Of a stretch of DNA of 64,000 bases, positions 29,243 to 60,791 are shown one piece after another. The stretch's first letter is position 1; every line of letters starts with the position of its first letter. The notes beneath the pieces are model-generated. The model was not told where the DNA came from. It was given only the letters and a program-made list of their open reading frames with translations, and searched no databases. The translations under genes and the position numbers were made by a program. This DNA comes from Asparagopsis taxiformis (lineage: Eukaryota; Rhodophyta; Florideophyceae; Bonnemaisoniales; Bonnemaisoniaceae). The DNA is taken from assembly GCA_030407315.1 (NCBI GenBank), contig JALQPE010002441.1, positions 1 through 64,000 on the forward strand, in the 5' to 3' direction.

Positions 29243-29243
29243 A

Positions 29244-34826: not shown

Positions 34827-34834
34827 TATATAAA
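34827..34834 (+). promoter_or_regulatory. TATA box of the secreted-protein gene
   Basis: TATATAAA, 118 bp before the ATG at 34953, which would give a 5' untranslated leader of roughly 90 bases. Confidence 0.65.
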
Positions 34835-34952
34835 CACTGATCCATCGATCGATCAACCGGCCGATTACACGCCACCCACACTTGCCCGCTCTGTCCTCCC
34901 AACGCATCGGCAATTCATCGACCCCTCATCTACACGACAGTGTATCTCGAAA

Positions 34953-35516
34953 ATGAAGGTCGTGTTCGTCACCCTGCTTCTGCTCTCGGTCATCTCAACA
35001 ATCTCGGTACAGGCGAGCAGTGTTTCTGAGCGCGGCCGAGAGATACCCGGTGCGACAAACGCCAGAAGAATTGCAAATGTACAAAATGGCCATCAATCCC
35101 AGCAGCAGGAGCGGGAGGACTCTGGCAATGACGTTGGGGCCGGTGAGACGATTGAGGAGATGGACGACGTAGGTGGTTCATTGCCGGTCACTATTCGCAA
35201 GAAGAAAGCGTTTGGGGCCCGATTCCCAAGAACGTGCCCCTGCAAACAGGTCAAGGCCCGTCCTGGAAAGTGCTATTACTTTCTCAAGAGCAAGGGCTTC
35301 AAGTGCAAGAGTCGCACATGCGAGCCGCGGTATGTGTGCGTACCGAAGAAGGTTGCTGCCAAGCTGGCAAAGAAGTTTGGAAAGGTGTTGCTGATGTGTA
35401 TCAGGCGGGTGACGAGGAAGCGAATTGTGCCGTGGATCAGGAAGGGGCGGAAGGGATTGTGCAAGTCTATTCGAACGCGCAGGAGAGTGTTCTATGTGCC
35501 GTATGTTCGCTCGTGA
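34953..35516 (+). CDS. Secreted cationic Cys-rich protein with acidic prosegment (187 aa)
   Basis: ATG 34953 is chosen over the in-frame ATG 34695 because it is the first after the TATA box and opens a clear signal peptide (MKVVFVTLLLLSVISTISVQA, cleavage expected near residue 21). Residues about 22-77 are hydrophilic and acidic (EREDSGND, GETIEEMDD). Residues about 81-187 are strongly basic with eight Cys, starting TCPCKQVKARPGKC and including FKCKSRTCEP and YVCVPKK. An even Cys number suggests four disulfides. The signal, acidic pro-region and basic Cys-rich arrangement resembles precursors of secreted cationic peptides or matrix proteins; no family is recognised and function is unknown. 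AATAAA lies at 35662-35667. Its paralogous promoter at 17263 has lost its coding region. Confidence 0.8.
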   Translation: MKVVFVTLLLLSVISTISVQASSVSERGREIPGATNARRIANVQNGHQSQQQEREDSGNDVGAGETIEEMDDVGGSLPVTIRKKKAFGARFPRTCPCKQVKARPGKCYYFLKSKGFKCKSRTCEPRYVCVPKKVAAKLAKKFGKVLLMCIRRVTRKRIVPWIRKGRKGLCKSIRTRRRVFYVPYVRS

Positions 35517-40198: not shown

Positions 40199-40880
40199 TG
40201 TAGCAGGTAGAAAATCCGCTAGAGCGGCAAACCACCCGACAGGTGTCCCGAGCCTCGGTAGAGGAAGTGGTAGAGCAGATGAACCTTATAGTATACCCAG
40301 CGGGAAGTCTCGTATGAGAGAAGAGGTCGCTACCCGGAAGGGGTTAGGCGAATAGGAATGCTCACGCTAGGTGCGTATGGATGGAGCGAGTGACGTAATC
40401 CGTCGAGCTGTTAGCTAACCCTAAGGTTGTCCCTGAGAGGGTTAAACAATAGGTATGCAAACACTGTTCCAATGGGTCGTAATTCCATTTGAGTTTACGT
40501 TACTCTAGAAACCGTGCCTACTGGCTATTCCAGTGGCAGTTTTATACTAAGTCTACTGTAAGCTAGGGTTAGTGGCTAGGAATAAATATCCAGTTAGTGA
40601 CCAATCAGAACCCAATTACTGGCGCCCGCCTACCCGCGAGGTTATTGCCAATAGGCTTACATTGTAATGTATGGCTGATCAGCCTAAGTTAAAATTTGCC
40701 CCTTGTGGGGTCTTGGCCGGGGCCGATAGGCCCGAGTGGGGTATTTGCAGCCTTGCGCTTGTCCCAATTACAGGAAACACGCCCAGTTGGCTGGTGCCTT
40801 GTGATTGGCACATCCCTTAAGTGGGTACCCAATAGGGAAGCGACACGCTCAGATTGGGAGGACCGCCAGGCGGTACGACA
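40199..40880 (-). repeat. Chromovirus D 3' LTR
   Basis: 682 bp, TG...CA ends, nearly identical to 29244-29925. On the minus strand it is preceded by the purine tract of D, so it is the 3' LTR of D and not a solo LTR. The outer flank is taatg. Confidence 0.88.
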
Positions 40881-40897
40881 TGGCCCCCTCCTGAGAG
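40881..40897 (-). promoter_or_regulatory. Chromovirus D polypurine tract
   Basis: Minus strand CAGGAGGGGGCCA directly before TGTCGTACC. The following 40898-41369 contains no gene and would be the leader of the antisense ORF. Confidence 0.75.
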
Positions 40898-41369
40898 ATT
40901 TGTCGTCCCGACAAAATTAAAAAAATACAAAATTTTGGCGATAGCCGTTGCATTTCGGCATTCAAAATTTCTCCCGCGCCCGACGCGTGTGCGCTATTTT
41001 TGTTGTCCACCCGACTCTTGCGAAGGTCCACCAGACCGTTTCCACTTTGGAATTGACAACATCGGTTGTATTGATCCCTCAGCTGTACCGCGCCTCACCC
41101 CTTCGGTGTTCAATTGCATTGTACTTGCGTCCCTTCCGTCATCCCTCAAAGGGTTTTTGCATCAAATCGCGAGATAATCAGGCGCGTGATCGCGTGAGTG
41201 GCGCCGCTTTGAGGCCCGTATTCGCTATCCGGCCACTCGCCTTGCGATCCCTCCCCATCAGGGTTGAATTCCGTAGCTCTTCTGCTGGAGATTTAAGCCA
41301 ATAGGCCATCGGTTTATCCCGTACAGGGTTTTATCGCCAACGTATTCCACCGCCTTTCGTCGGCGTAAA

Positions 41370-44300
41370 ATGGCTCCCCGCGCGCCGATTCAATTCGAAT
41401 CCTCAGAGGAGGAGAAAGAAGATATGGGTTCGCCCAACCGTCCGACTACGCGCTCGAGCGTGCGTCGTCCCACGACCCGTCATCAAGCTTCGTCATCCCG
41501 TACCGGGGTCGCGCCAGCGTCGACCAAATCGTCTTCCGCGCCGGCTACAAGTGCGCCTCCGGAGCCCGCTACTCAACCGTCCACTCGGACTCGTTCGACT
41601 TCCTCGAAAGCGCCAGTCACTCAGGCTTCGCCGGTTGACAAGGACACTGCGACTCCCGCTCGCTCCGATAAGACAGCCACCCCAACCGGGAGAAGTTCGC
41701 AAGGGCGCAGCCTCGGCCCAGCCGACTCGCCTGCTTCCCAGAAGCCTGCCGCTCCGGTGGCAGCTGCCAAACAGTCATCGGCTACGCCGTCGTCACACGC
41801 AACTGAGCCCGCTAAGATTACCGGTTCGCCCCCACAAGGGGCCATGCCGGCGGATGCCGGCGACGTTGTCGAAGTTATCGCCGAAGGAGGCGCGACGCCG
41901 AAGCCCACGAGGCAATCGTCTGTTAAGCCTCAGCCGAGTTCCCGGTCCACTATGGCCCGGCCCTCCGCCTCAGCGGTTCGTACCTCCTCGGGTCGTAGCG
42001 CTTCGGCGAACCCTTATGAGGAATATGGTCGCCGCAACCAGCAGATCCTGGCAGACGCACGTAAGCGTAGGGATGAAGAGTTACGCAGAGAGGCCGCTCG
42101 GGCGGAAGCCGAGAAGGCAAGTACTCGGGTCGTTGGGTCGGCTGCGGACCCTTACACCTCTGCCGGCGGAGCTACCTAGAGTGGGTCCGGTGCAGTTCCC
42201 GTTACTGCTTCTTTAAGCGAGAGGCCATCGGGCACAACCTTGGTCGATCCGTACGCTGCTGCGCCTGCCTCAGCACCGGCTGCCACGTCCTACGACACTC
42301 CCGTTAGGGTTCCGAAACCCACTGCCAACTGGCGTTTCCCTGGGGAGTTCTACCCTGCCAACGCTGATGAGCTGATGGTATTCGATTCTAGGGTCTTGCT
42401 TTTCAGGCGTGAGTTGGTGGCTCCTTGGGAACATTATCCGTTTGCGCGGCTCCCTCGTAGGGAATTTACCGACCGTCCGAGAAGCGAATTGCGTCGCGAC
42501 ATGTTTCTCATGAGTTCCCTCCGAGGGCAGAGTCACCAGGTACAGAACGAGTGCTGGTCGGCGTATGCCCGTCTCCCTTCGAGTCGCCCGATGCGTCACT
42601 TCCGCGTCCCTCACACGCTATTCAGCGATAGGACCTTCCTGCTCCATCCCGGGGATGCACTTTACGTTGAACGTATGAACCGTCGGTTGTTCCAGTTGGA
42701 GTCCTACCAAGGAACGGTGAAGGACATGCCGATAGTTCGGTCTCGCTGGTTCGCGTACCCCCCTCGTCCCGACACAGGTCATTACGAGCATCATATGCGT
42801 GTGCACGCAAGGGCGACTTCCCGTATGTTGGGGCGCCAGGTGACGGCGAATGATTATCGCGTCTTCGCGCACCGCAATGGAAGCTCCGTTGAGCCGCTTA
42901 CGCGTTCGATGAATGTTCCTCCAGAGACCCTGGACTTGCTGTGGGACGATCCCAGTTGGGAAGGAAAGTCATCTCCACCGATGTGTTTGCCGATTGCCGA
43001 CCCACCGTCACTGGTGTATTTCCATCATTCCGCTCTTCACGAGGCGCCCGCTTGGCAACGCGACAGGTTCCTTTCTTATCTCGAATTGGAGAGGGAAGTC
43101 CTGATAGGGATCGAGTTGGCTCGTATCGCTGAGACGCGGGGCTTCGTGCCGGTGTTGGACACGACACTCATCGAAAAGGTAAGCCGTACTTGGCATGACA
43201 TCACGTCGGTACCGCAGTCGGCGGTCGTTCCCCATAGTCGGGAGTTACCGGCATCGGTGGTCCGAAGGTTGTTGGAGGTAGCTCGTGGGAGCGGTGACTA
43301 TCCGCAGGAGATGGTGAGTACCAACATTACTGGGCTCGCGCCGGAAAAGGTGGTTATCTTCACGACTAGTGATTTGCCGGTGAGGGCGTTGCGTATCAAT
43401 GTGTTGAACCATCGAGAGGGTACGGCAGCGGAGCTACCTCCTTACCGAAGGGCTGGTGAATTTACCGATGACGGGTATTACGGCCTGGAGCCTGAGACTT
43501 ACTCCGATGGGCACCCCGAGTCTTACAAGTACCAGCCGGTTGGCGAAGCGTTCGTACCGCGTCCGTGGTGGAATGCCGAACTTGGCGGCCCGGGGGGTAG
43601 GTCTCCCTACGCAGGGCGGAGTTTTGCTCCTGTCGCTCCCTTACCACCTGGTGGTTCCGCTGACTTGTACGAAAGGCCTGTCCCGATGGACACTACGCCT
43701 ACCGCGCCAGCCCCTCAGCCCGTGGCTGCCCCGCCTTCGCAGATGGGACCCGCAGTGGAGGCATTCGTGTCGTCTGACAAGGGCTCGGAGCCATCCATTA
43801 ATGGTGATGACGGTACTCCGCGTCAGCCTCCGGCTGTGAACATTCTACGTGGGGAATTGTCCGGTCGCGAGTTGATGTCGGTTCCGCGAGTGCGGCAGTT
43901 GGCCGAGGAAATCGGGGATGGCACGATCGCTTCTATTTTTGTATCTGCCAATGGGCGTTATGTTGTCACCTCCGCGTTGGATACGCTTGCACTGTCGTGT
44001 ATTACGTTAGCTAATCGCTACAAGCATGGACGCGAGCAGCGTAACGCCGCCCGAGAACGCCTCCGTGAAGAACGTGGACGTCGCCGCGTGGCGGATAAGG
44101 AGATTGAGGCAGCGCGCCATGATGCGGCGGAGTTGCGGGCCCGGGTCGGGGAATTAGAAGATGAATTAGAGGACGCCCGGCGTCAGCTACAGCAAGCGAC
44201 TGCTGCCGTGCGCGTTGTTCCCGGAGGGGGTGGCGAGGAGGCGGTTCAGCCTGGTTACTCGCGTCGGCGTGCTCGTTCTCCTGATGACGGTTCTCCGGAG

Positions 44301-44654
44301 CGCAACGTGCGTACTCGTCTTCGTTCCCCCGTGGGTGCCGCGGGTGCTGATACCCTTTTGCTCGCGCGATTGGATGCCCGGATAGGGTCGCCTGAATCGC
44401 CGGACTTATCTCCGCGTTCGGCGTCTGTTCCCACGGTTGAGGTAGCCGCTCCTGCGTTCGCGCCTTCGCATGGCCCTGTGCCTGCCCACCGTCGGGGTGC
44501 TGGTGCTGTTCTGCAGCGTGGTTTGCGTCGCAACCCGACCTACGCAAGGGTTCCACCCCGCCATCCTCGTCCTTCGACGAACGTGCGTGCTCCCGCCCCT
44601 GCGGCACCGTCTGCTTCCCATCGGGCTCGGCCTTCGAGCCACTATCGTCGCTGA
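41370..44654 (+). CDS. Chromovirus D antisense ORF (aORF), about 1,094 codons with one in-frame TAG
   Basis: Opposite strand to gag-pol, between pol and the 3' LTR. ATG 41370 opens a Ser/Thr/Pro/Ala-rich basic region (residues 1-269), stopped by TAG at 42177-42179. The same frame continues without another stop to TGA at 44654. The second part has a globular region (about 300-700) rich in Arg, Tyr and Trp, a Pro-rich linker, a helical coiled-coil segment (about 890-955: NAARERLREERGRRR, HDAAELRARVGELED) and an Arg/Pro-rich tail. A segment with LVYFHHSALHEAPAWQRDRF aligns by eye with VFHYAPSVLLGLDVPVETRSYF in the chromovirus C aORF, as does the overall layout. No known domain. It may be a structural or host-interaction protein of the element; this is inference. 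Confidence 0.8.
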
Positions 44655-44891
44655 GGACAGGCAATCGCCTTCGTGCGAAACCTCTAAGGGTAGTTTGAAC
44701 ACGCTTCTGCGTTGCGCCTTTGTTCATCAGGTAGTCCTGAGGCACCTTTGAGGTACACTAAAGATGCATCATCACGTTGACGTGTTGACTTGTTTTGTTG
44801 AAAGCCTTGTTAGCGAATTTTTTTGTTTTTCCAAATTTCTTAATTTCTCTCCGGTTGGCGGTGTGCAGAGATATAGTGCGCCCTTTTCGGC

Positions 44892-47800
44892 CTAGCCTCC
44901 CGAGGCCTCGGTACCCGTCGCATACCCACCGGGTGGACTCGTCCCTTTGTTAGGTTGTCGTCCCTGCGGGGTTATGCTACTTCTTCCCACTTCTGGGTGT
45001 GCGCGTGCGCGGTCGGCGCGGTGGCTTGCTACCTTTGTGGCGTTGCATTCGACGGAGTACCGCGATGCCCATTCGGGTGGGACGTTTGTATGTTGCGTCC
45101 ATGTTGGCTTGCGGGAGCCATACCATTTCACCAGGAACCATTGTTCACCGTCGTCGTCAGTGACGTAGTCGACCAGGTCGTCTATTGGGTACTCCTCCGC
45201 TGAGGGTGCGTGCGTGGCGTCGTCACTTCCCCTTGGGGTTTCCACCGCCTCGTCAGGGGAAGCAAATTGTTCGCCGTTTGGGCGAGTTGATCGCGGCGAT
45301 ACTTCTTGTTCCCCATTGGGGGTGGTTGCCTGTGGTTCCACGAGGTCCGGCGTCTGTCCGCGTGCTCCAGATGGTTGTCCTTTTGTCGCATTTGTGCGGG
45401 TCGAGCGCTTTCGGGTTGGGTAGATGGCGTCGGCCCCTGCCGTGGTTTGGCGCGGCGTTCGCTCGTGCTGTGTATGAGCCCGGTTAGGGTTGGGGCGTTG
45501 CTGTTGATCTGCATCGGCAGTGTTGTCCTGGCGTCTTCGTCGCTGACTTCTTCGCAATTGCGTGCGACGCGGCTCGGGTGATACCATGGGTGTGGTTTGT
45601 TGATGCCCAAGTGAGCGACTTAGGTCGTGTGCCTCGCTCCCGATTGTGGGTGCACTACCCGAGGGTGGCGGTTTATTGCGCTCGTCCCGAGAGGGTTGTG
45701 GAAAATTTTGGCTTACGCGTATAGCGTCGGGGGCCCCCTCCTGAAGGGTGGTTTGTCCCAAGCCACTACCTTCTCGTGTCATCCTAATTGTAGGTTGTCG
45801 CGAAGGCGGTGTATGCTCCATGGTGGGAGGTTCCTGCGTAGGACTTGGTGGGGGTGCTCCGCTTTGTGCGCTTTGTTGTCTGCTCGGCGGTTGGTGGTGT
45901 TGTGTAGCCGACGCGAGGGCGTCTGTACCTGATGGTGTGTCGCGCGCCTTAGCGGGGGGTGATGCAAGGGATGACGTTTGATTGTCTTCCGGACGAGGAG
46001 CGAGTGCGACTCTGTCGAGGCTAACCTTTTCGGTGATACCGTCGCGATCAATGTACACCGTACGCCGTCCGGCACGGATAACCCTGTAGGGACCTTGGGC
46101 TATCGGGGTTAGCTTATTCCGTTCGCGGACTTCTGGGTTGTCCAGGTACACATAATCATCGGTCGTGATGAGTCGTTTGGACTTCCGGATCGACCGGTCG
46201 AAGTTGCGTTTGTATCGCGCCTGTGCGCTGTGTAGACGTTTACCTGCCAGCTTGATGGTGTCCGTGATACGGCGTAAGAAGTCTTGCTTCGTGAACGCAT
46301 CCGGCGTTGTTCTTCGTCTCACCGAGTGGTGTGTCGCGTATGGTGGCGGAGGCCGGCTTAGGATTAGGTCGAAGGGTGTGGTACCCGTTGTGCGATGCAC
46401 GTGCGTATTGTACGCATACGTTAACGCTGGTGCGTAGACATCCCAGTCATCCTGGTTATCATTGACGTAATTACGTAGCATGTTCAACATGGTGCGGTTG
46501 TACCGTTCGACTTGCCCATTTGTCTGGGGATGGTATGCCGTCGTGAAGACGTTCTTCGTTCCCAACTGGAGGCAGACGGCCTGGAAGAACTTTGACGCAA
46601 ATAGCGGACCATTGTCGGATAATAATGTCCATGGGGGACCGAACTTGAACACCCAGTGTGTACAGAAGGCCACTGCCACATGGTAGGCTGTGATGCTTCG
46701 CAAGGGGACCACTTGGGTGAGCTTGGTAAAGCGGCATGATATCACCAGTAGGTGCACATTGCCTTTCTTGGTACGTGGTAGGGGACCGAGGAGGTCAATC
46801 GCGACGTCATCCAGAGGAATGGTAGCTGGGAACAGCTGAAGGGTGCTCGCATGTTTGCGCAACCGTAGCCGGTTCTTTGCGCACGCTGAACAGCGTTCGA
46901 CTGTTCCGGTTATGTCCGCAGCCATTGCAGGCCAGTAGTAGGATAAGCGCATCGTGTCGTACATGCGATTTTGACCAGGGTGTCCTGCTAATAGAGCCAT
47001 GGTGGCACATTGTCAGTAGACGTAGCCGCAAGGCGTTGGGTACTACAATCTGGAATGATCCGTCCAACTTAGACTTCCTACAGAGGACACCGTCTTCATC
47101 CTCGCAGAAGAGCGAGTCAGACTTCTGGGAGGCAAGGGCCTGTTGGCAGAAATCGTCGGCTTGTTGCTCCTCGAGCCACTCCTTGAGAGTTATTGGGTTA
47201 AAGTTTTCCGTATGCGGATGAGTTGTTAGGACGGGGGAACCTTTGGAGGTAGATTGTTTCTCCACGTCTCTGGCTAGAGAAAGGTCATAGTACCAGACAT
47301 CGATGTCATCGTCGGGGTGCGTTTCACCCGGTGGTGCTCGCGTAGCCAACAGAGTTGGTATTTCATCGTCGATGGGGATGGGCGTCTCGCCGGTGGTTTC
47401 TACACGCGATAAGGCGTCTGGTAGTTGGTGAACCCGACCGGGTCGGTAGACGATTTGGTAATCGAATTCCGCAAGTCGGAGGCGCCAACGGCATAGTCTC
47501 CCCGAGGGGTCATTGATATTCATAAGCCATCGCAGCGCGTTATGGTCCGTTCGAACGACAAACTTCGTTTGCTCCAAGTATGGACGTAAGGTAGTGACAG
47601 CCCACAGACGGCTAAGCATTCGCGTTCAGTGGGGGAGTACCCTCTTTCAGGTTTGGTTAGCGTTCGCGACCAATAGCCGATTGGCTTGAGGTCATTCCCT
47701 TCCTCCTGCTGCTGTAGCAGCGCGCATCCTATTTGGTACGCGGACGCGTCCGTGTCCACGGTGTAGGATTTACCTAGCTTGGGTAGTGCCAGTATCGGTG

Positions 47801-48203
47801 GCTTGATCATGACCTCCTTGAGGGCAGTGAACGCGCATTGTTGCTCCTCGGTGGGAGGTTCTTTCCCGAACTTAGGGATGTTGTCTTTGGTCAGCATTTC
47901 GTTTAAGGGGTGGGCAATTGCCGCGTATCCTTTAATGAATCGGCGGAAGACTCCGCAACTTCCTAGGAAGGAGCGCATCTGCGTGGGAGTTTGGGGAAAG
48001 ACCGCATTGGCGATTGCCGCGGTGGCGTTTTGTGCGACGGCTAGTTTGCCGGGCATCACGACATGACCAAGGTAGTCAACCTTCTTTTCGAAGAATTGAC
48101 ACTTTGTCAACTTTAAGGTGACCCCTGCCTTCCGTAGAAGAGAGAGGACCTGGTCCACATGGTGGAGGTGTTCCGCTTCGTCCCGGGAGAATACGATCAC
48201 ATC
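44892..48203 (-). pseudogene. Chromovirus D pol, 3' portion: RT end, RNase H, integrase, chromodomain
   Basis: Continues the RT directly from 61587 once C and one target copy are ignored: ...LIYLD / DVIVFSRDEAEH. RNase H starts with SYTVDTDASAYQIG. A frameshift near 47605 separates ERECLAV from WAVTTLRPYLEQ and VVRTDHNALRW. A second near 46990 separates HHGSIS from AGHPGQNRMYD. Integrase has the CSAC pair, DVAIDLLGPLP, LLSDNGPLF and NGQVERYNRT (D, D, E). A Gln/Pro/Thr-rich tail of about 230 residues follows, then a chromodomain (VDYVTDDDGEQWFLVKWYG...PTWTQH). Stop at 44892. Confidence 0.9.
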
Positions 48204-48993
48204 TGTAGGACCAGCCAGGGTGGCGATCGCTAAGGGAGTTCTAGAATTGCAGCCGTGTCAGGGCGTGGTGAACCGTAACGCGCTGGTTGAACTTGCGTTC
48301 GCGCGTCGCTCGGTCGCGCTGGCGAACGGGTGGTACAACGGCGGAACGCGTAGGGAACGATCGCAACACGGGATTCGCGGGCCGGCGCAAGCCGTGATCT
48401 CAGGGTGAGATCACCGAGTAAACTCGAGCACAACGCGATCCACACAGGGGTCGTAAATCCCTGGCCTAGTGGCGTGCGACGCAACGCGCGCTATCGCGGT
48501 GCGACGCGGTTCGACGATCGGTTTATGCGCAGCGCGCACGCGAACGTCGGCGATCGTGAGCAACCCGCACGCAACGTTGTAACGCAATCGGTCCTCGCGA
48601 TTCGCTAAACGCTTAACTCGTAGCTGCGAAGATGCTGGCTGTTTATTGGTAAGGTGCGAAGCGGAACGACCATTAATAGCTAACTACTAAGGACAGGTTG
48701 TCCTTGCGCGGCCGGCCGGCGGCCGCTCGCTCGCACGCAAAAAAGGGAAATATTTGGGAAAAAGACTTTCGTCATAAAAAACCCAAAAAGGGAAAATAAA
48801 GGGAATTTCGCAAAAGGCGCTACACGTGGCGCCAAGCTCGCAATCGTACGCGTTCGCGCAAGCGCGCCGTGACACGTAATTGTATCGCCACGCGTACGCT
48901 CGCTTACTAACTAACTAAACGCGGATGCACGCGGACTCAACGCGACGCATCGCTCCGACCCGCGCGCGCACTTGCAACATAAATTGCATCACA
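48204..48993 (-). repeat. Chromovirus C 3' LTR
   Basis: 790 bp, minus orientation TGTGATGC...CCTACA. It contains a GC palindrome cluster (ggccggccggcggccgc) near 48709. Confidence 0.92.
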
Positions 48994-49008
48994 CTCCCCC
49001 CGACTAAC
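48994..49008 (-). promoter_or_regulatory. Chromovirus C polypurine tract
   Basis: Minus strand AGTCGGGGGGAG immediately before the LTR start TGTGATGC. Confidence 0.8.
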
Positions 49009-49166
49009 ATCACAGCGCGTCCTCGCGCGTCATCTCTTTCCTCACGTGCTCTTCCGTTTCCTTCGTTCTACTCTTTTCGTCTGCAACCTCTTCTCTTTTG
49101 TTCCATCTCCTTCTTCCTTCTCTCTTGCCACCCGCGTTCGCCGTCATCCTTACCGATTCGCACGCT

Positions 49167-51791
49167 ATGGCGCACGATGGTGATACCCTTCCGAGCTGGC
49201 TGCGGGCCAGCATTCCTTCCGGCGAAGGCGCTGCGACGCCGCTACGCACTCCGTCTGCCGCTTCGCGCTTCGCTTCGCCGCCTGCGCCTGCGCCTGCGAG
49301 CCCCGAGAGCCCGTTCTATCTTTCCATGGCTCAAGCGTCATCCGCGAGCGCTCCGGTTGGTGCGACGGCGAGTGCGCATAATACGGACGGCGCTGACGCA
49401 TCGCCCGGTATCGACGCGACAGTGGACGTGACTGCTGCTCCCGCATCCGCGTCTGGGAGTCGCACGAACGTCGGCGTGCCTTTGCGGTCCATTCCTGCTC
49501 CTTCGTCTGTTTCTCTTCCTTCTGCTGCGCAACACGTACCCGCCGTCGTCCCGCGTGCGCGCTACGAAGACCCTTCTGCCTTCCGTTTCCTTCCGCGCGC
49601 GATGCCGACTTGGACTGAGCTAGGCCGTGTTCAATACTTCCCGCGGCGTTTCCAGTGGATGCGTATCGCCGACGTCAACCGCTACGCGGTGTTGCCCGGT
49701 CATAAAAACGCGCAGGCCGTGTGGGACGCGCGGCGTGAAGCGGCCCTGTGCGATTTAGCCGTACCCACTAATCTTCCATGCGATGCCTATTTCCTCGAGG
49801 ACGCAGCGGACGAGTGGCTTGTGCGTCATCTGGCGCGGCTCCGAACGATGCGTCGCGACGAATTTGCGCATCTTGATCCGTGGGCGGCGGCGCCTAGCGC
49901 CGGCTTCTTGTTGGACGGTGGTGTCCCCTGGAACGACATCGAACAAGAAGGAGAAGTCAGTGTACCGTGGTTCTTTGACGCGGGGATGCGTGCCGAAGCG
50001 CGCCGCGAGTTACGCATGCGCCGCTCCGCCGGTTACTTCGTCACGTATCGCGACGCGGAGTTTCGCGAGTTCCCCGAGGATCGCGTTGGCGCTTTCTTTC
50101 CGCGCTACGATCCGCGCGACTGGCCGGAGGCGCCAGAATCTCTTTCCGTTCCTTTGCCTTGTGTCTTCCACTATGCGCCGTCCGTTCTTCTTGGCCTTGA
50201 CGTCCCTGTGGAGACGCGTTCTTATTTCTGGGCCGTTGCCCTTAGCGAGTGGGTCGTCATGGTGGCTTGCGCGTGGCTCCATGTCGCGTTCGTCGAGCGC
50301 CGCATCGTTCGCTTGAGCGACAGACTCGTGGCTGGCATCGAGAGCGTCGGCGCTGCGGCAGTCGTTCGTGGCGGCACGTATTCGGTTGCGCATTTGGAGA
50401 GTCTTTTGACGGAGCATCGCGCATGTCCTTGGGACGAGACGCCTGTCTTCGACGTCGCCCCGGGTGTGGACTTTAACGAGGGTGGCCAGTGGTTGCCTTG
50501 GAGCGCGGAACGCGGCGTGATAGACTGGGCGCACGGCGCGCTCGGGGTTCATCGTCATACCGAAATTCCGCACTTGTTGTTGAAGTCGCCGCGTAACCCG
50601 TCGCGCAGCGCATTCGCGCACTTGGAAGCGGGTGACGTTGTGACCGTGGATGCCGTCTTGTCGGCCTTATCTTCCAACGAGTTGCATGTGATGCGCGCAA
50701 CTAATTCGCGCGAGTACGCGCAATACCTCGGCATGGCTGCGTTATTGGCCGTCGAGCGCCGGCGTTTCCGCGACGGGCGCTATTCGTTATTCTCTGAGTC
50801 GCCTCGGCCTCCTGTTGACATTACTCAGTTGGACGCAGCGCTACGGGCAGAGTACGTCAAGGTTTATAACGAACTGCAGGAGTTGAAGAAGTCCATTCCA
50901 AGCCAAGACAACGCTAACGCTCCGGGTGGTGCGAGCGCGAGCGCGGCGGTTGGTAGCGTCGCGGCGTCGAGCGCGGTCGCGGTTATTGACCCGGCGGAGG
51001 CGCCGGCGGCGGTGGACGGCGAAGAAGTCGTTGCCTTAGCGGATTCAACGGGTGCGGCCAACTTGCAGGCACAAATCTCGTCTGCTGAACAAAACCGCGA
51101 CGAGGCGCTTTCGCGTGTGACGTCGGTCGCCCAAGCTCGAGACGAAGCCCTGGGACGCCTTGACGTGGCTATCAAGGCCCGCGACGAGGCGATTAAGGCT
51201 CGCGACGATGCGAACGAGGCGCGCGACGAGGCCGTGTCATTCTTACGCGAGACTCGCGAGGCGCTGGCTGCGTCCGAGGCGCGCGAGGCCGCGCTGAAGC
51301 GTAAGGTCGACGAAGACGCCGTGCGCATCGAGCGCATGCATAAGGATATCGGCGTAATGCAAGGTCGTGCGGCGGAACAGGAGAAGGAGGTTGAAGGTGG
51401 TCGCGAAGCGTTGGCGGCCCTTCAGTCTCGTTACGATTCCGCCGGTTCAGCGCAGGAGGCCGCGCAGCGTGCGTTGGCCGAAGTCGAAACTAATTTGGAG
51501 GCGGAGAGGGGTCGGTTGGCTGCTCGAATCGCCGCTGTACGTGACGGGTATCGCGCTCGGGAGAGGGAGACTGTCCGTCGGGTTCAGGAAACTATCGAAC
51601 GCGCTCACCGTATGGGCTCGGCGTTAAATGACGTCGTCAATTTCATGCAGCGTTCTCCTGCGGGTTCTGTTGATGAAAGGGAGTCGACTGGCGCGACGCA
51701 GTCAGAGAGCGGGTTGCGCGCAGATGCGACGCGTGGCGCGACGGGAAGCGTTGTTTTTTTTGTTCGGGTCGTGGCGGGGCGCGTCCCATGA
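49167..51791 (+). CDS. Chromovirus C antisense ORF (aORF), 874 aa, intact
   Basis: Opposite strand to gag-pol, starting 173 bp inside the 3' LTR. The frame is open upstream, but the first ATG is 49167 (MAHDGDTLPSWLRAS). Residues 1-130 are Ala/Ser/Pro-rich. A globular region of about 135-560 includes FRFLPRAMPTWTELGRVQYF, VFHYAPSVLL and VALSEWVVMVACAWLHVAFV. An Ala-rich linker follows, then a long coiled coil (about 635-850) with repeated KARDEA/EARDEA units. The end is disordered. Layout and a mid-protein segment match the chromovirus D aORF, so the protein is conserved between two divergent elements. No known domain. The coiled coil implies oligomerisation, but role and location are unknown. 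Confidence 0.85.
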   Translation: MAHDGDTLPSWLRASIPSGEGAATPLRTPSAASRFASPPAPAPASPESPFYLSMAQASSASAPVGATASAHNTDGADASPGIDATVDVTAAPASASGSRTNVGVPLRSIPAPSSVSLPSAAQHVPAVVPRARYEDPSAFRFLPRAMPTWTELGRVQYFPRRFQWMRIADVNRYAVLPGHKNAQAVWDARREAALCDLAVPTNLPCDAYFLEDAADEWLVRHLARLRTMRRDEFAHLDPWAAAPSAGFLLDGGVPWNDIEQEGEVSVPWFFDAGMRAEARRELRMRRSAGYFVTYRDAEFREFPEDRVGAFFPRYDPRDWPEAPESLSVPLPCVFHYAPSVLLGLDVPVETRSYFWAVALSEWVVMVACAWLHVAFVERRIVRLSDRLVAGIESVGAAAVVRGGTYSVAHLESLLTEHRACPWDETPVFDVAPGVDFNEGGQWLPWSAERGVIDWAHGALGVHRHTEIPHLLLKSPRNPSRSAFAHLEAGDVVTVDAVLSALSSNELHVMRATNSREYAQYLGMAALLAVERRRFRDGRYSLFSESPRPPVDITQLDAALRAEYVKVYNELQELKKSIPSQDNANAPGGASASAAVGSVAASSAVAVIDPAEAPAAVDGEEVVALADSTGAANLQAQISSAEQNRDEALSRVTSVAQARDEALGRLDVAIKARDEAIKARDDANEARDEAVSFLRETREALAASEAREAALKRKVDEDAVRIERMHKDIGVMQGRAAEQEKEVEGGREALAALQSRYDSAGSAQEAAQRALAEVETNLEAERGRLAARIAAVRDGYRARERETVRRVQETIERAHRMGSALNDVVNFMQRSPAGSVDERESTGATQSESGLRADATRGATGSVVFFVRVVAGRVP

Positions 51792-53969
51792 CGCGTTCGC
51801 GTGCAGCGGCGAGTTCCGCGGGTCGCGCGAGGCGTACGGGTATCCCTCCACTCCGGATTGGCGTACACGACGGGCGCGTCGTTCGGGTGTTAAATTCCGA
51901 GCGGCGACGCGGTCACCAGGCAGATACGGCTTCAAGCCGTGCTCGTTCGCGCGGTGCGGCAGCCAGTTCGTCGAGCCGCGCTTCGCGTCGAGACGACGAC
52001 ACGCGCGCGCCTCCGTCTTAGCTATCACTTCGTTCCTCCTCCTCGCATTGCATCCTCTTTTGAAATAAACTCTCCTTATTTGTATCTCCACCTAGCGCTT
52101 CGTAATGCGGGGTTCCTCCCGTCCGACACGCTTGCGGCCGTGAAACGCCAGGGTTCCTGCAGCTTTTGAGTGAGCGACAGCGCAACGCGGGTTCCGTCAA
52201 ATGCATGCATGAGCCGGTGTTTCCGCGAAGGGGCGCGCGTGTCGTTGCTTGAAACCGTATTTGCCCGCTGCCCACGTCGGCGTTCGGAGGGCACGCGGCC
52301 GGCGGCGTCCAGTCGTGCGCGCGGGGGGAAGGGAGGGGTAGAATGCATACGTTGCGAAGCGAGAAAGGTTTGAGTGGGGGGGTAGAAGAAGGGAGTCGGG
52401 ACGGGTAGCGCGTCGGTACGAGTTCGTCGTAGCGGTTTCGTTTCGTCGGTTCGTCACGCGCAATTCTCGACGTCGCTGGTTAATTTTCGCATGCGTATTC
52501 GTTGTTCGCTTCCGCTTCGCGTCGTCAATTCGTGCCGCCTTACGCATTCGTCGTTCGCGTCGCCGGTTCGTTCGCTTTTTCGCATCCGTCGTTCGCGTCG
52601 CCTACTACCGGCGTTCGCCGTTTGCTACCGTGTCTATTGTCCCGTGACTAGAGCGGACGGCCGAATGGTACCTAGGGGGCTCGGGTGGGGTCACATTCTT
52701 CCCTTCTTGGAGCGAGCCTCATTCTCCACGCTTGGGTTGAGGGGGAACCATGCACGTGGGCACCACTATATTCTCGGTAGGGGGCTGCGTGCGTCCAGGG
52801 GTCTGCGTCCTTCCACCAGCTTCGAGCGCCTCGCTGGAGTTCGCGTATGTTGTCGTCCAATCAGGTGACGGTAGTAGGGGGCAGTTCGTCACGGTGCGGG
52901 GGCCAGCTTGACGGCGGCGCGATTCGGGTGCCCCTTTCGTCGCATTTTTCCAATGGGACAATTCGAGTGGGACGGTAGAATTGCTAAATAGCCGGGCCAG
53001 CCCGCACGCCAGCGCCAGTGTCGCTCCCCTTTTTTCGCGCGAAAACGCATCGCGTGGTCCCGCGCATGTCGCGGCCTCTGGAGTAGGTCGGGTGTTAGTC
53101 GAGGTCCAACTCGCAACGAATCCAGAGATACGCGACCGTTCGTATTCGCGGCGGTTCCATCGAGCGTAGTGGCGCAGTGGCCGTGTGGCGGTAGACGGTC
53201 GTTAGGCGTTACGTGGCGTAAACGGCGGATAGTCGCGTGGCGAACGAAAGGCGACCGAACCGCAAGCGGCGAATATTGCGTGGCGCCTGTTTAGCGAGAT
53301 TGACGCAACGTCCGTCATGGGCTTTTCGCGCTTATCGCACTTCTTAACAGGCAACGTCTCGAGCGTCAGCGAGGGGGCTCAATATCTTCGCGGTGGTGGC
53401 GTCCCGCGCGACGCGTGTCGATGCCGGACCGACCAGCGTCTGTGAGGGCCCCTTCGTGTGTTGCCAAGCGTCGAGATTCAGGCAGTTTAGTCCGGGGCGG
53501 CGCGCCTTCGCGCGGGTAGTCGGCGCGGGTAGCAGCGCGGCGGGCAAACGTCGAATCGTGTCCAACCTGTCAGGCGCACACGTACGCGGCTCGCGAGCGG
53601 CGTCGCTTCATTGCGCGCGGCAGTAGTTCCAGGTCATTCAGCGGTAGAATGTCGATTGCGCGGGGCGTGGCGAACGACGAAGCGTTGGCGCGAACGCGTG
53701 GCGTACGCCGAAACGGTTACAAGGCGTTCGAGGAAGCGTTTGCGTGTTGTGCGACGAAGCGGTTGCGTGGCGCTGCGACGCTTGGCGGCAATAAGTCGTA
53801 TCTCCTCCCGGTCTCTGCTGCCGATAGTAGTTTGGCGTGATGCAAGGCGGGTAGCTGTGTTTGCGTTGGATGCTTACCGCTGCCAGGTGGTCATCTGGCG
53901 CTCGCGCAGCTTCTTCGTCGACGTAAACGCACGTGGATGGCAACCCCACCGCCCGCAACGCTTCGTGCA
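51792..53969. other. Chromovirus C ORF-poor spacer between pol and aORF
   Basis: About 2.2 kb, CpG-rich, with only short overlapping frames (under 150 codons) on both strands. In D the corresponding gap is only 237 bp. It may hold the 3' ends of the two convergent transcripts. Confidence 0.6.
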
Positions 53970-56900
53970 TTAATTGCGTTGCGCCCGAGGGGTCGCTTGT
54001 CGGCTTGCAATACGCGCGCTGATGCGGGTAGGTGTCGTTTTTCGCGGCGCGCCATCGGGCGCCTCCCTCGGGGCTGAGCGCTTCATTGAGCGACTTCGGC
54101 GGTTACGCAGCGCCGCAGGGCCGTCGGCAGTAGCGCGCGCAGCGGTTTTAGAGGCGGGCCGTCCTTGATCACGGCGAAAACGGGAGACGATAGGCGCGGG
54201 CAGGGACGCTTCGGGCTCCCACGTATCATCGCGCGGGGAGTAGCCCTTCCAGCGCACCCGGAATACAGGCGTGACGGTATCGTCGATGCCCTCAGCCGTC
54301 AACCTGTCAATCATGAACTCGCGCGTTCCATACCCGGCTTCCGGGTCGACCTTGCGCGCCTCGTTAATTTCGCGTTCATCCCGTCGCTCTGCGTCGTTCG
54401 CGTTCTCCGTGTTAGTGTCTTCTTCTACGTCGTCCCACGTCGTTGGCGCATGCGTCGCGTAGCGCGGTGCTATGCGAACGCGGTCGGAGCTGACGAGTTC
54501 GGGGACACCGTCGATTATGATTTCGTACGTGTGTCCGCGGCAGCCTATAACCGGGAAAGGGCCCGACACAGGATAGTCTAACTTCGACGTGTGCGCTGCG
54601 TCGCTGCGTTGCGTTCGTGTCGTCGCTCCCGCGCGAGTGTCCAGGTACACTTGATCGCCCACCTTGATATCCTTATTCACCGTGCGCACGCCGCGGTCAA
54701 AGTCGCGCTTGTATCTCGCTTGCGCTTTCTTTAACGCGTTCGCCGAGCGTGCGTACGCGTCCGATAATCGTGCGAGAAATTCCATGCGAAGGAATGGCGT
54801 GCTGCGAATCGTGTCCACTTGCTCCGTTCCCAGCGATACGGGATAGCGCGTGAGCGTGAGTTCGAACGGCGACGTATTCGTCGAGCGGAGTATCGCGCGG
54901 TTGTAAGCGTATGCTAGCGCGTCTAAATGCTCGTCCCAATCTCTGCGCTCTTCATCTACGTAATGGCGCAGCGTCGCGACGATAGTGCGATTCATGCGCT
55001 CGACTTGTCAGTTCGATTGCGGATGGTATGTCGTTGTGAATATGTTCCGCGTACCCATTAGCGCGCAAGTCTCCTGAAACAGCTTCGAGCGGAATTGCGG
55101 CCCATTGTCCGAAAGTAGCGTGCGCGGCGGTCCATAGACGAAAACCCAGTCTCGGCAAAATGCCTTCGCAACGGCGAGTGCGGATACGCGTCCGAGCGCG
55201 ATGAGTCGGCAGAGTTTGCTATAGCGGTCTGCGATTACGAGTACGAAGCGGCGTTGGCGCGGAGTCTCGGGCAGCGGACCAAGGATATCGATAGCGACGT
55301 CTTCGAGCGGGCGCGTCGCGGGGAATAGCTTCAGGGCGTTCGTATGGCGATATTGCGTAACGCGGTTACGTGCGCACGCATCGCACTGTCTCACTGTAGT
55401 GTAGACGTCCACGCTCATCATCGGCCAGTAGTACGCGCGTCGGATGGCGTCGTACATGCGTCGCGCGCCCGGATGTCCTGCAGTTACCGCATAATGGTTA
55501 GCTCGCAAAATGCGCCCCTTAATCGCTTCGGGCACGACTATCTGCGTGGCGCCGTCGAGCGGCGCGGTCCTCATAAGTATCCCATCGGGGGACAGGTGAA
55601 AGCGCGACTGCGGCGCGGTTTCGACGTCGCGTTTCGCGTTTTGGCAGAATTCGTCTGTCGCCTGCTCGCGTATCCACTCGTCAGTGGACACGGGCGGTTC
55701 GATGCACGACCGAGTTGCCAGTAGGCAGTCCAAACTCGGGTAGTATTCTGCGTAGTCGCATAGTAGCGCGGTATCGGTTCGCGCATAAGCGTCCGCGTGC
55801 GGTTCAACGATGTTCGCGGCGTCGAAGCAGGGTATCTCGTCCGGTATTTCCGTCTCGTCGCCGCTTCGCGTGGCCATTCGCGAGAGCGCGTCGGCGATAA
55901 CGTGGCGTTTACCCTTTTTATATTCGACGTCGAACTCGAACTCGGCGAGTCGCAATCGCCAGCGCGCGAGTCGTCCTTCCGCAGAGGTCATGTTTAGAAT
56001 CCAGCGCAGCGAATTGTGGTCCGTGCGAACCGTGAACTTCCGTCCTTCTAGATACGCGCGTAGTAGTAGCACTGCCCATACTACCGCGAGGCATTCGCGT
56101 TCCGTCGTCGAATAATTTCGCTCCGCGTCGTTAAGCGTGCGCGACCAGTATCCGACTGGATGCAATGTGTCTCCGTCGGCGTCTAACTGTAGTAACGCGC
56201 ATCCGATTTGTCCTTGCGACGCGTCGGTATCGAGCACGTATGGGTGTCCCTCGCGCGGTAGGCGAAGAATAGGCGGAGATAGCATCGCTCGTCGCAGTGA
56301 TTCGAACGCGCGCGTTTGCTCCGGCGTCGGCGCGGGTAAGCTGTCTCCTTGGTCCTTCTTTAGCAACTGCGTAAGCGGCGCCGCGACGAACGCGAATTTT
56401 TCGACGAATCGGCGGTATACGTTGCAAGTTCCCAGAAAGCTGCGCAGCTGCGTTTTCGTCGTCGGATACGTCGCATCGCGCAGCGCGTCGCATTTCGTCG
56501 TCGGTACGGATAGCTTCCCCGGCGAAATAGTATGTCCCAAATAGTCCACCGTGCGCTTGAAGAACTCAGTCTTCGCGAATTTAAGCGAAACGCCAGCGCG
56601 TCCGAGGATTCCCAGTATCTCGTCGACGTGATGCACGTGCGCGTTTACGTCGGCGGAGAAGATGATTACGTCATCCAGGTAGACAAGGCAGTGCTGCCAT
56701 TTCACGTTCGCGAGCAAGATATCGAGCGCGCGCTGAAACGTCGCGGGCGCGTTCGATAGTCCAAAGGGCATACGGCGGAAGCGATACGTACCAACGTGCG
56801 ACGTAAACGTAGTCTTATCGCGGTCGGCGTGCGCCACTGGGATCTGCCAGTATCCCGAGTTGCAGTCCAGCGTAGTGAAAACCGTCGCGTTACCAAGCGA

Positions 56901-58199
56901 ATCGACGCAATCGTCCATGCGCGGAATCGGATACGCGTCCTTGACGGTAGCGGCGTTTAAGCGGCGGTAGTCGATGCAGAAGCGGGAAGTCCCGTCCTTC
57001 TTAGGCACGACTACGACCGGGCTCGCCCACTCCGATGTAGCAGGTTCGATCACTCCAGCGCGGAGCATCTTATCCACTTGCGTACGGATAATTTCGCGCG
57101 ACGCGTGTCCGGCGCGGTACGGCGGTTGGTTGACGGGGGTCGCCCCCGGAACCAGTTCGATGCGGTGTTCTGTCGCGTGGATGGCTCCGAGCGTGCCATT
57201 CCACATGCGTTCGTGCTTTCGCAGCATCTCGATAATTCGCGCGTGTAGGTCGTCGTCTACTCGCTCATCGCGTAGTGTCGCGCGTAAGAGGTCTTCCCAG
57301 TGCGGCGTCGCGTTCGCAATTCCGTCGGCTTCGCGCAGGTCCGGCGGGTTCGTCGCGTTGCGTGGCGTCGCATCGTCGGGCGGTCGGTCTTGCGGGGTCG
57401 GTGCCTCTTGTGCAACTTGTAGGCAACCTACGGGGTTGGGCACCGCGGCGCCCAGCTTCATGCCTTTGGGCAATACCTGTAGGCGGGTGCCGGCGTTGTG
57501 CACGTGCACGCTGAAGGGCACGTTCCTTTTAACCTGCGTTTCACCATTGGCTAGACGCAACAACTTCTGTCCGTAGAGGTCGGTCGCGGGTATCGTGATG
57601 CAGCGTCCGTCAGCACCCGTGGTGACTTCGATAGCTTGCGTCGCGTGCGGCGGAATCGACGTGCGGCGCGCAACGCGGATTGGTGCGAAGTCTGTCAGTC
57701 GGGTAGTCTTGGGGGTCGGTGCGCGGCGCGGTTTCGTCGGCGTTCGTGGGAGCATTGGAACGTGGTCTCCATAGCGGGTTCGCAACGCGCGCTGCGGCCC
57801 AGTATAGATCATCCGAACCACACGGTCGATGAAGTCTGCTCCCAGAATGCAAGGGACGGATAAGCGCGGCATCACCAGGAAAGTTTGAAGGTGCGCGCGG
57901 GCACCTAGAAGAACGCTAAGTCGCAACGACGCGTTAGGCGCGAGGCGTCGTCCATTCGCGTCGATAATCGCGCAGCGCAGCGTCGGCGGCGTAGCGTGGC
58001 GCTTCCAATCAGCGCCTAATACGTTTTCGCGAATGAGGCTCGGGCCCGCGCCGGTATCAAGCACAGCGGTCACCGCGGTGGCCGTGCGTAGATTATATCC
58101 GACGCGTACCTCGAGTTTGTAGTTCGCGGTAGGGGTCTGAAACAGGACCACTGTTTCGGGTGGTAACGGAGGCGGTTTTTCGCGCGGCGGTTGCGTCAT
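53970..58199 (-). pseudogene. Chromovirus C pol, 1,410 codons with one in-frame TGA
   Basis: ATG 58199 (MTQPPREKPPP). The same frame is open back through the gag stop, which fits -1 frameshift expression. Protease VLDTGAG (DTG at residues 48-50). RT with EWASPVVVVPKKDG, FTTLDCNSGYWQ and YLDD (complement of 56670-56681). RNase H with LDTDAS, YSTTERECLAV and RTDHNSLRW. Integrase with HYAVTAGHPG...CDACAR, DVAIDILGPLP, LLSDNGPQF and the E in QVERMNRT. TGA at 55008-55010 stands where D has Gly (HPQTNGQVER), so one base change is the only lesion. A chromodomain (FRVRWKGYSPRDDTWEPE) follows and the frame ends at 53970. It is close to functional; stop readthrough cannot be excluded. Confidence 0.92.
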
Positions 58200-58243
58200 C
58201 GCGCGTCGCGTATCCGTTGGGTGGAGAGGAGTCGGCCCACCCG

Positions 58244-60214
58244 CTACGACTCCTCGTAGGCGTTTCCCGGGTCTTCTGCGAAGCGAACCGAGTGGGGCGT
58301 GAGCTGCTCGCCGTCGTGCGCGTCGTCTTCGCGCGTGCGTTCGCTTTCGCGCTCGCGTGCGTCATCGTCCGCGGAAACTTCGAAAACCTGAACGTTACGC
58401 TGCAGGTTCAGTTCTTCGGGCGTTAGGCGCGCGTGGCTATGCATCTCGCGAATCGCGGCCTGTTGCTCGGATGAGAGCAGCGGGCAGCTTACCATGGGGT
58501 GTCCGAACTTCCGGCATATCAGACAGCGGAACGCCGCTGTGCGAGACGTGTCGGCCGGTGCCGTCTGTCTCACGATAGGCGGTGGGTAAGTTGCGCGCGG
58601 TATGTGCGCCGTGTACGGTCCCGCGCGTTCGCGTTCTCGGTCGTCGTTATGCGCAAAGCGTCGCGAGCGGTCGGCGGGCGATGCGTCGCGAGAGCGTGGC
58701 GTGCGATAATTCGACGAAGGGGTGCCAAGCGAGGTTGGACTTCGCATGGGGCTCGGGGTCGAGAACTTCCGTTCGCGCGGAGCGTGCGGAGTCGCGGCGG
58801 AGGTTGAGACGTTTGGCGATGAGAAGCCTGATGGCGGGGTGTGCCCCACGGTCAGCGCTTGCATCGTTGGTGTCTCCTCCTCTTCCACGTAGAGCGCAGG
58901 CGTTCGCCTTAATAGCGGTCGCGCGCTCGTCGTCGGCGTCATCGCTCGGTGCGTGTCTCCGTGGCTCTGCGCCATAGAGACTAGCTCTCGAAAGGTGTAT
59001 CGACGCGGGTCGCGAGACAGCGCGTCCCGTACGAGGTGTTGCGCATAGGGTCGTAGACCATCGACGAAAATAGAAACAAGCGTTCGCTCGCTAAACGCAT
59101 CGCCGCAGCGCAGCGCGCGGCGTCGTAGTCTCGTAGCGAATTGCGTTTCGGTTTCCTTCGGGTCTTGCGTTTGTTGCGCTACGTCACGATACGCTTGCGC
59201 GACGTCGCCTTCGCGCGCATAGGTCAGCAGGAGCCACTGAACGGCTTCCGCGTAGCACGTAATCGAATCGACGCCCGCGCGCGAGCCTCGGAACGTTCGT
59301 CCCACGTACGTTTGGAACGTGTCGCGCGCCTCGTCGGCCAGGAAATACTTGAGAATCGGCAACGCTGCGCCTTCGGATACGCCGGTGTCGTCGCATGCGC
59401 TCTTGAAATACTTCAGGAACGATAGCACGGCGATTCCGTCAGCGCCCGTGAAATTCTCTCCTTGCATCGAATGGCGCACCATTTTCGCGGTGTTAGCCAA
59501 TTCGCTCGCAATCGTTCGGTTAAACGCGCGGTCCGTATTACGCAAGCGGTACGTGCGATACGAAAGCGCGCGCGTGAACAGCTCGTTCAACGGCTGGATC
59601 TCTACCAGCCCGGGATGTGCGGGTCCATCGTCGCAATCCGAACGCGGATGGTCGTCGAATGACAGGTCCTGGCGCGCCAGTTCCAGCCATCCTTCGGGGT
59701 CCGCGCTGCGCGCGTAGTTCGTAGGGGTCGCGCGCGCTGCGGTTCGCGTTCGGTTTTCGCGCGCAGCGACGTTCGCGCGTTCAATATTGTGCTCCTCGCG
59801 GGAGTCCATCGTAGTGACGATTAGGTTGTGGACTTGCGCCCTCATCTGAGCCGTCAATCCACGTGACTGGCCTTTGATAGCGCGGTCCACCGCGGCTCGT
59901 ACTTCAGCCTGGAGCATGCATTGGAACGTAGGGTCGTCCACTACTTGTCGAACCAAGCTCGGAAGCGTTGCGGACGGCGTAGCGTGCACGTCGGAAACGC
60001 GGAACTCGGCTTCACGCTTCGTGGCGGCGCCATCGTCGGACGTTTGCGCGTCGTCGTCGATGCTCGCGAGCGCTTGCGTCGGTAACGGCGGCCACGGAGA
60101 AGCGGTAGGGTCAGGGATATGTGAAGCGACCAGCGCGTCGACTGCGTGCGTTTGCGACGCGACTGGCGGCGGTTCGGTCGGCGCGTTCGATCGCTCGGGC
60201 GCGGATGGATCCAT
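58244..60214 (-). CDS. Chromovirus C gag, 656 aa, intact
   Basis: ATG 60214 (MDPSAPERSNAPTEPP). Pro/Ala-rich N-terminus; charged helical part (about 85-190); capsid core starting near FTRALSYRTYRLRNTDRAFN and including FLKYFKSACDD and QFATRLRRRALRCGDAFSER; a Ser/Pro/Arg-rich linker; one zinc knuckle CLICRKFGHPMVSC (C-x2-C-x4-H-x4-C) near residue 565; and an acidic end. Stop at 58244. Pol lies in the -1 frame and is open across this stop, so a frameshift near the gag end is expected. Confidence 0.92.
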   Translation of the reverse strand: MDPSAPERSNAPTEPPPVASQTHAVDALVASHIPDPTASPWPPLPTQALASIDDDAQTSDDGAATKREAEFRVSDVHATPSATLPSLVRQVVDDPTFQCMLQAEVRAAVDRAIKGQSRGLTAQMRAQVHNLIVTTMDSREEHNIERANVAARENRTRTAARATPTNYARSADPEGWLELARQDLSFDDHPRSDCDDGPAHPGLVEIQPLNELFTRALSYRTYRLRNTDRAFNRTIASELANTAKMVRHSMQGENFTGADGIAVLSFLKYFKSACDDTGVSEGAALPILKYFLADEARDTFQTYVGRTFRGSRAGVDSITCYAEAVQWLLLTYAREGDVAQAYRDVAQQTQDPKETETQFATRLRRRALRCGDAFSERTLVSIFVDGLRPYAQHLVRDALSRDPRRYTFRELVSMAQSHGDTHRAMTPTTSARPLLRRTPALYVEEEETPTMQALTVGHTPPSGFSSPNVSTSAATPHAPRERKFSTPSPMRSPTSLGTPSSNYRTPRSRDASPADRSRRFAHNDDRERERAGPYTAHIPRATYPPPIVRQTAPADTSRTAAFRCLICRKFGHPMVSCPLLSSEQQAAIREMHSHARLTPEELNLQRNVQVFEVSADDDARERESERTREDDAHDGEQLTPHSVRFAEDPGNAYEES

Positions 60215-60789: not shown

Positions 60790-60791
60790 GT

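Follow-up and report, generated by a model that had tools for sequence, protein, structure and literature searches.

Antisense genes under purifying selection beside the 3′ long terminal repeat in two Ty3/Gypsy families of a red alga

Extra open reading frames (ORFs) in plants were reportedly surveyed by Steinbauerova et al. in 2011. Antisense genes of long terminal repeat (LTR) elements are reported from plants and fungi, with their function given as not known (PMC7264820). In plant Gypsy elements they include the aORF-3R genes, among them Grande gene23, RIRE2, Retand ORF4 with TRP28 (PF04195), and PvRetro13 (PMC7264820, PMC11963269), and the original prediction for the locus described here had noted that antisense ORFs near the 3′ LTR occur in some plant Ty3 elements (PMC7264820). 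GENE23 is nuclear and transcribed from its own promoter, and some plant antisense ORFs have SMC-like matches (PMC7264820). In recently active Retand elements, TRP28 is encoded in 97% of clusters, its function likewise given as not known (PMC11963269). Boty-like elements of Botrytis have an additional antisense gene, brtn (Zhao et al. 2011 via PMC8365987; PMC7264820), and in human T-cell leukemia virus type 1 (HTLV-1) the antisense protein HBZ, which has a bZIP domain, is expressed from the 3′ LTR toward the interior of the provirus (PMC10186651). Red algae are already known to have chromoviruses (PMC3605345). Here we describe antisense genes of two red-algal Ty3/Gypsy elements, D and C, which lie in the first 64 kb (the window) of contig C2315 from an assembly of 141.5 Mb in 3156 contigs.

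Antisense ORFs and the selection acting on them

Long plus-strand ORFs are present between the end of minus-strand pol and the 3′ LTR in both D and C, as had been predicted, and we regard it as nearly certain that they encode selected element proteins. The D gene (41370–44654, plus strand) has 1094 codons in intact copies of the window's subfamily. Its window copy is split by an in-frame stop at 42177–42179, so that location and strand were as claimed for a long ORF in each element, but the window D frame is closed. The C gene (49167–51791, plus strand) has 874 codons in the window and 945 in loci L006–L008; the window copy has a frameshifted tail and ends in another reading frame.

Loci were taken from the matches in the genome (30 of 45 for D and 8 of 41 for C), and D-family frames were counted at the 24 full-length loci (L009–L020, L027–L038), with the six partial loci L021–L026 excluded. 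The full frame, 1088–1109 amino acids long, is present in 13 of these 24, that is, in 5 of 12 loci of the window's D subfamily and 8 of 12 of D2/D3. Both loci of subfamilies D4 and D5 (L047 and L048), which share 42–43% identity with D, are open (1067 and 1062 amino acids). The 945-residue frame is full in three of eight C loci, and two further ones, including that of the window, are open for 873–874 codons; among three additional C-type loci, L050 is open (866 amino acids) and L049 and L051 are interrupted. Since the four duplicated window-type C copies differ by small indels, some of the broken frames may be assembly errors. To count copies genome-wide, we back-translated the D peptide RWFAYPPRPDTG and the C peptide FLLDGGVPW, the latter with one mismatch allowed. 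The motifs occur 309 and 329 times, respectively, and the backwards-pattern controls 0 times; these counts take in broken copies, and pol copies are not among them.

We then calculated the ratio of nonsynonymous to synonymous substitution rates (dN/dS) by the Nei-Gojobori method, by which large dS values are rough. This ratio across copies had been set beforehand as a check, and it is not near 1, being 0.14–0.26 between D subfamilies and 0.05–0.08 in the C middle domain. For representatives of D, D2, and D3, the whole-gene dN/dS is 0.15–0.21 at dS of 0.60–0.88, and D4 versus D5 gives 0.21. Comparisons of D with D4 or D5 are largely saturated, with 0.23–0.24 for the whole protein where computable. 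Differences are in excess at third positions (424 of 737 between L015 and L033). Purifying selection is concentrated on a middle domain of about 430–450 residues. In the D representatives, dN/dS is 0.08–0.13 in this domain and 0.15–0.40 in linker and tail; between C subfamilies it is 0.046–0.079 in the middle domain, at dS of 1.4–2.3, and 0.24–0.35 in coil plus tail. In the C set, the L006–L050 comparison is saturated for the middle domain, no ratio is available for one pair, and L049n versus L049c, two pieces of one gene, was left out. Full-length C copies give 0.085–0.15, with two pairs identical. The corresponding values for gag/pol are 0.12–0.27 in the D family and 0.06–0.26 in the C family; selection on the D antisense gene is similar to that on gag-pol. 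With dN/dS far under 1 and frames open in diverged subfamilies, the proposal of a conserved element gene is borne out.

Protein architecture and the relation between the C and D proteins

The layout originally described holds for both proteins, which have a low-complexity N-terminus, a conserved middle, a coiled coil, and a basic tail. In D, the conserved middle is encoded at 42303–43574 (plus strand; residues about 312–735) and a C-terminal helical stretch, in which a basic half is joined to a heptad coil, at 43830–44204 (plus strand; residues about 821–945). In C, the conserved middle is encoded at 49548–50900 (plus strand; about residues 125–575 of the 945-residue form) and a coiled coil of ~200 residues at 51051–51653 (plus strand). 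The coils are the only parts of both proteins that AlphaFold modelled confidently. The C helix of ~200 residues has blocks mostly at a predicted local distance difference test (pLDDT) score of 67–87, and the D helix of ~80 residues is confident over ~55. The indels within the coil helix, of 7 and 7 residues in D and 28 and 14 in C, are multiples of 7, which is what an uninterrupted heptad coil demands. The remaining gaps (2, 3, 5, 6, 9, and 10 residues) lie, by our placing, at the coil ends or in linkers. The basic tails are kept between D subfamilies.

As stated in the original prediction, the proteins match no known domain: Pfam, NCBIfam, and PDB sequence searches with them gave nothing significant beyond coil matches. 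Matches to C/EBP, SMC, and YscO fall on the coils and were rejected; no SMC ATPase head domain was found, and the coil-region matches, seen in three of four proteins, are far under the cut-off. In Pfam, the antisense proteins match no capsid, envelope, or zinc-knuckle family, and six D-family members trimmed to about residues 300–960 give no bZIP match. PF04195 has no match in the two window genes (Pfam, E 1) or in the same six members (about residues 300–960, E 10), and a relation to transposase_28 was rejected on this ground. In the whole genome, PF04195 has no match at E 0.001 either, a result weak by itself because the control genomes are also silent. Searches of viral contigs with C and with the D alignment found no relatives. 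Protein searches, with ~8000 best candidates scored in each, yielded P0001 for C and P0002–P0006 for D. Of these, P0005 shares 98% identity with L015, and by eye P0001 and P0002 resemble near copies of L049 and L048; such near copies of known loci add nothing to the host range.

An alignment made by eye (VYFHHSALHEAP / VFHYAPSVLLGL) had led to the proposal that the C and D proteins are homologous. The alignment is not above chance by profile methods, and the permissive-gap test is mixed. In the profile comparison by hhalign, the C–D probability is 0.2–0.7%, at the level of permuted controls (score 16.3 versus a permuted-column mean of 16.8, standard deviation 2.9, 60 permutations), and the positive control, D versus D4/D5, reaches 100%. 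The best C–D BLASTP match has an E value of 0.19 and is within the coil. By profile Smith-Waterman alignment with gap costs 11/1, the C–D score is reached by 29 global, 44 local, and 44 block-order shuffles, each out of 200; at 9/0.5 it is reached by 8, 9, and 11 of 200, respectively. At 8/0.5, two of the 200 local shuffles and none of the 200 global or 200 block-order ones attain the score of 68.3 (z 3.2–3.7), and a reversed control scores 38.3; at 7/0.5, none of 600 shuffles attains the C–D score (z 2.9–4.3). Ten gag/pol pieces score 29–47 in this comparison. As the gap costs were varied after looking, the weak colinear signal under permissive gaps is taken as a hint only. A by-eye extension of the alignment was dropped, since the best scored alignment follows another path.

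Whether the C and D proteins go back to a single ancestral antisense gene and have since diverged past recognition is a matter separate from function, and we consider the two answers equally probable. Common ancestry is favored by the same place, strand, and layout in both elements and by the Smith-Waterman signal above shuffles at 8/0.5 and 7/0.5. The evidence on the other side is that shuffles reach the score at 11/1 and 9/0.5, that hhalign equals permuted columns, that the best BLASTP match is in the coil, and that gap costs were varied late. The rate of divergence also bears on this point. Over a 200-residue integrase stretch, D3 and D4 share 81% identity and C and D3 share 52%, and the D3–D4 identity in the middle domain is 53%. 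Extrapolated by integrase scaling, the C–D identity to be expected under common descent would be about 15–20%, below detection, so the missing profile signal does not refute homology.

Leaders and a candidate regulatory role

We define the leader as the stretch from the inner edge of the 3′ LTR to the start codon, and took the expected number of ATG triplets from Markov resamples. The D leader, a candidate 5′ untranslated region (UTR), spans 40882–41369 (plus strand, 488 nucleotides); it contains 0 ATG versus ~6.3 expected, as against 8 on the other strand. Across the five full D-family leaders (488–502 nucleotides; window D, L015, L028, L027, and L033), the gene strand has 0, 0, 0, 0, and 1 ATG, with 5.3–6.3 expected by resampling and 8–10 on the opposite strand. 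The next ATG beyond the leader is at about 700–711 nucleotides in L015, L028, and L033 and at 656 nucleotides in L027. The five leaders are related, and two come from one subfamily; as the D and D3 leaders share just 72% identity, the lack of ATG is more than one shared accident. Its restriction to the coding strand suggests that the D leader belongs to a scanned 5′ UTR whose start lies at or in the 3′ LTR. The C leader (48994–49166, plus strand, 173 nucleotides) is pyrimidine-rich and has no ATG, but is too short for the test. For transcription from or near the 3′ LTR, as originally proposed, the ATG-poor D leader thus offers indirect support drawn from sequence, and the C leader is too short to tell. 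We consider an LTR-proximal antisense promoter probable. The ATG-free leader is also a simple sequence test that can be used on such elements elsewhere.

Taken as a whole, our reading is that the antisense ORFs serve two red-algal Ty3/Gypsy families as accessory genes, are read toward pol from a 3′ LTR promoter, and encode nuclear regulators; we see it as evenly poised between right and wrong. Antisense transcription toward pol would start from a promoter in the 3′ LTR or directly at it, and the antisense mRNA, with its 5′ end at or in the 3′ LTR, would be translated, the leader being the basis for this step in D only. The protein would form coiled-coil dimers and enter the nucleus through its basic tail. 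There, much like maize Grande GENE23 or HTLV-1 HBZ, it may regulate the element by acting, for instance, on the pre-integration complex or on transcription from the LTR. The nuclear regulatory role, taken by itself, is tentative and somewhat doubtful.

A number of observations weigh against this accessory-gene reading. The regulatory role is argued by analogy, and the antisense genes are described here from DNA sequence. AlphaFold gave no fold for the C and D middle domains (blocks at pLDDT of about 23–47), and no Pfam or NCBIfam domain match names a function. The D coil, whose first half is basic, matches C/EBP weakly (best E 0.042, not significant), and the bZIP signature used in our pattern test, a basic region with Asn and Arg at fixed spacing, is found in 0 of 7 proteins. 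One of the five full D-family leaders, that of L033, contains an ATG, and window D has one at 490 nucleotides, just inside the LTR edge. The leader test is low in power for C (0.3–0.4 ATG expected) and for D4 and D5, whose leaders are partial. As to selection, the linker dN/dS of D versus D4/D5 reaches 0.36–0.59, and very similar copies within D give 0.30–0.55. Very similar D2/D3 copies give 0.04–0.30, with one pair undefined (2 nonsynonymous and 0 synonymous differences); raised values among very similar copies are as expected soon after insertion.

Other explanations differ in what the protein would do. It may be a particle or scaffold protein, that is, a second, separately expressed Gag-like or env-like component whose coil aids assembly, and an antisense mRNA would then uncouple its amount from that of Gag. 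The large size of the protein, the long coil in C, and the strong constraint on the middle domain would fit such a component. However, both families already have a sense-strand gag (that of locus L040 passes Pfam Retrotrans_gag, and C gag matches that gag with 33% identity over 249 residues), and the antisense proteins show none of the particle-type domains looked for in Pfam; we therefore consider the scaffold role unlikely. No more likely is a role in counter-defence, in which the protein suppresses silencing by the host and the antisense transcript may also feed copy-number control by double-stranded RNA (dsRNA). The antisense position would permit dsRNA with genomic RNA, a role suggested for plant antisense ORFs (PMC7264820), the families are numerous, and the C insertion looks recent. 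Against this, Pfam and NCBIfam show no similarity to a known suppressor, and the middle domains evolve slowly, unlike typical arms-race proteins, which often evolve fast. Finally, the frames could be chance ones, held open by base composition or by the constraint of an overlapping sense gene. GC-rich DNA does give long chance ORFs, and the window has many small overlapping ones, but the low dN/dS belongs to the antisense frame, the diverged D4 and D5 are open, and the longest minus-strand ORFs over the genes (120-residue minimum) have 244 residues at D and 203 at C. We rejected this explanation on dN/dS and give it next to no credence.

The elements, their setting, and known relatives

Element C (48204–61581) is inserted within the reverse transcriptase (RT) gene of element D. 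Its 3′ LTR (48204–48993, minus strand), delimited by repeat comparison, and 5′ LTR (60792–61581, minus strand) are both 790 bp and identical, which suggests recent movement of C. They start with TG and finish with CA, and a 5-bp target duplication, ACATC, is on both flanks. C gag (58244–60214, minus strand), with a CCHC knuckle read by eye, shares its 33% identity with D3 gag. C pol (53970–58199, minus strand) encodes protease, RT, RNase H, integrase, and chromodomain in two pieces, 55008–58199 and 53970–54995, with one in-frame stop between them near 55008. The 3′ LTR of D (40199–40881, minus strand, 683 bp) has its inner edge, 40881, toward the antisense ORF. It repeats at 29244–29926 (99.7%) and has a 92% match in L040 and L041; a purine-rich tract, read by eye, adjoins it on the sense strand of the element. 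The 3′ part of D pol (44892–48203, minus strand), assigned from Pfam and the ORF list, comprises the RT end, RNase H, integrase, and a sub-threshold chromodomain. Beyond the C insertion lie the 5′ part (protease-RT, 61590–63224, minus strand) and the C-terminal part of D gag (63239–63964, minus strand), and the remainder of D is past the window end. C and D had been called two chromoviruses. The C chromodomain passes the Pfam cut-off (31.9 versus 25.1 bits), but those of D (11.9 bits) and D3 (14.6 bits) are under it. C and D3 pol share 45% identity. One D3 element has all three frames open: gag and pol at L040, of 651 and 1697 codons, respectively, from stop to stop, and the neighboring antisense ORF, L033.

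The modules of these elements evidently recombine. D (L015) and D3 (L033) have LTRs with 92.6% identity, leaders with 72%, and antisense genes with 77%, and between them dS climbs from 0.24 in gag to 0.44 in RT, 0.57 in integrase, and 0.75 in the antisense gene. The antisense genes of L027 and L033 are near identical to about codon 700 and then have dS of 0.4–0.6, a switch that indicates recombination inside the gene. In the C-type locus L043, the pol C-terminus has 62% amino acid identity to C, whereas RT is close and the antisense gene, broken in that copy, has 91% DNA identity to C, pointing to module exchange.

The D element with the C gene ~7.8 kb further on has four near-identical occurrences (window 41370–51791; G000:C2315:93513, C2316:6452, and C2316:42443), so this region either underwent a large duplication recently or represents a repeat in the assembly. 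A D-type element is represented at 28325–29926 by its truncated 5′ end, in which the gag N-terminus adjoins a D-type LTR. Elsewhere, the window contains a tandem Copia array at 17314–28495 with a period of 4925 (repeats at 17314, 22239, and 27164), which has two 1487-codon ORFs and a third, truncated one; nested tandem-like repeats at 2770–4591 with start spacings of ~500 and 386–388; and, at 34695–35516, an ORF of 273 codons with no Pfam match, a basic Cys-containing C-terminal part, and what looks by eye like a possible signal peptide. A tRNA search of the window found none, and no Rfam family passed the gathering threshold.

The genome has 13 phycobilisome family matches, 11 of them on contig C469 (9 near full length), and among 14 control genomes only a cyanobacterium has a match; we hence take the host to be a red alga, not a plant. 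We found no report of such genes in red algae in the literature on red-algal LTR elements and antisense ORFs, covered mostly at listing level and apart from subscription papers and Repbase. The two antisense genes define new protein families, in a group of hosts from which we saw no earlier report of antisense LTR-element genes. With two high-copy families whose antisense genes are under gag/pol-like selection and intact in several subfamilies, the question becomes testable through strand-specific transcripts, the fold of the two conserved domains, and localisation.

Both genes are ORFs between pol and the 3′ LTR, opposite to gag-pol and conserved across family copies, which places them in the same location and orientation class as plant aORF-3R; the red-algal proteins differ in having no PF04195 match. 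Retand is described as a non-chromovirus of plant hosts, whereas red-algal C carries a chromodomain. The Boty gene brtn, an antisense gene in an LTR element outside plants, and the captured extra ORFs in LTR elements of bdelloid rotifers (PMC5408684) are likened by description only. HBZ resembles the red-algal genes in its antisense position at the 3′ LTR, and the D protein has a basic-then-heptad helix; the red-algal proteins lack the bZIP signature, are 3–4 times larger than the 31-kDa HBZ, and have a distinct middle domain. By position, then, the genes belong to a known class; by the tests made they appear to encode neither TRP28 nor bZIP proteins. It is conceivable, though improbable, that the antisense genes of the flowering-plant Tat lineage, fungal Boty, and these red-algal elements are one ancient, fast-diverging Ty3/Gypsy module of globular domain, coil, and basic tail, read from the 3′ LTR and encoding a nuclear provirus regulator. 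If so, an HBZ-like layer of antisense control would predate retroviruses.
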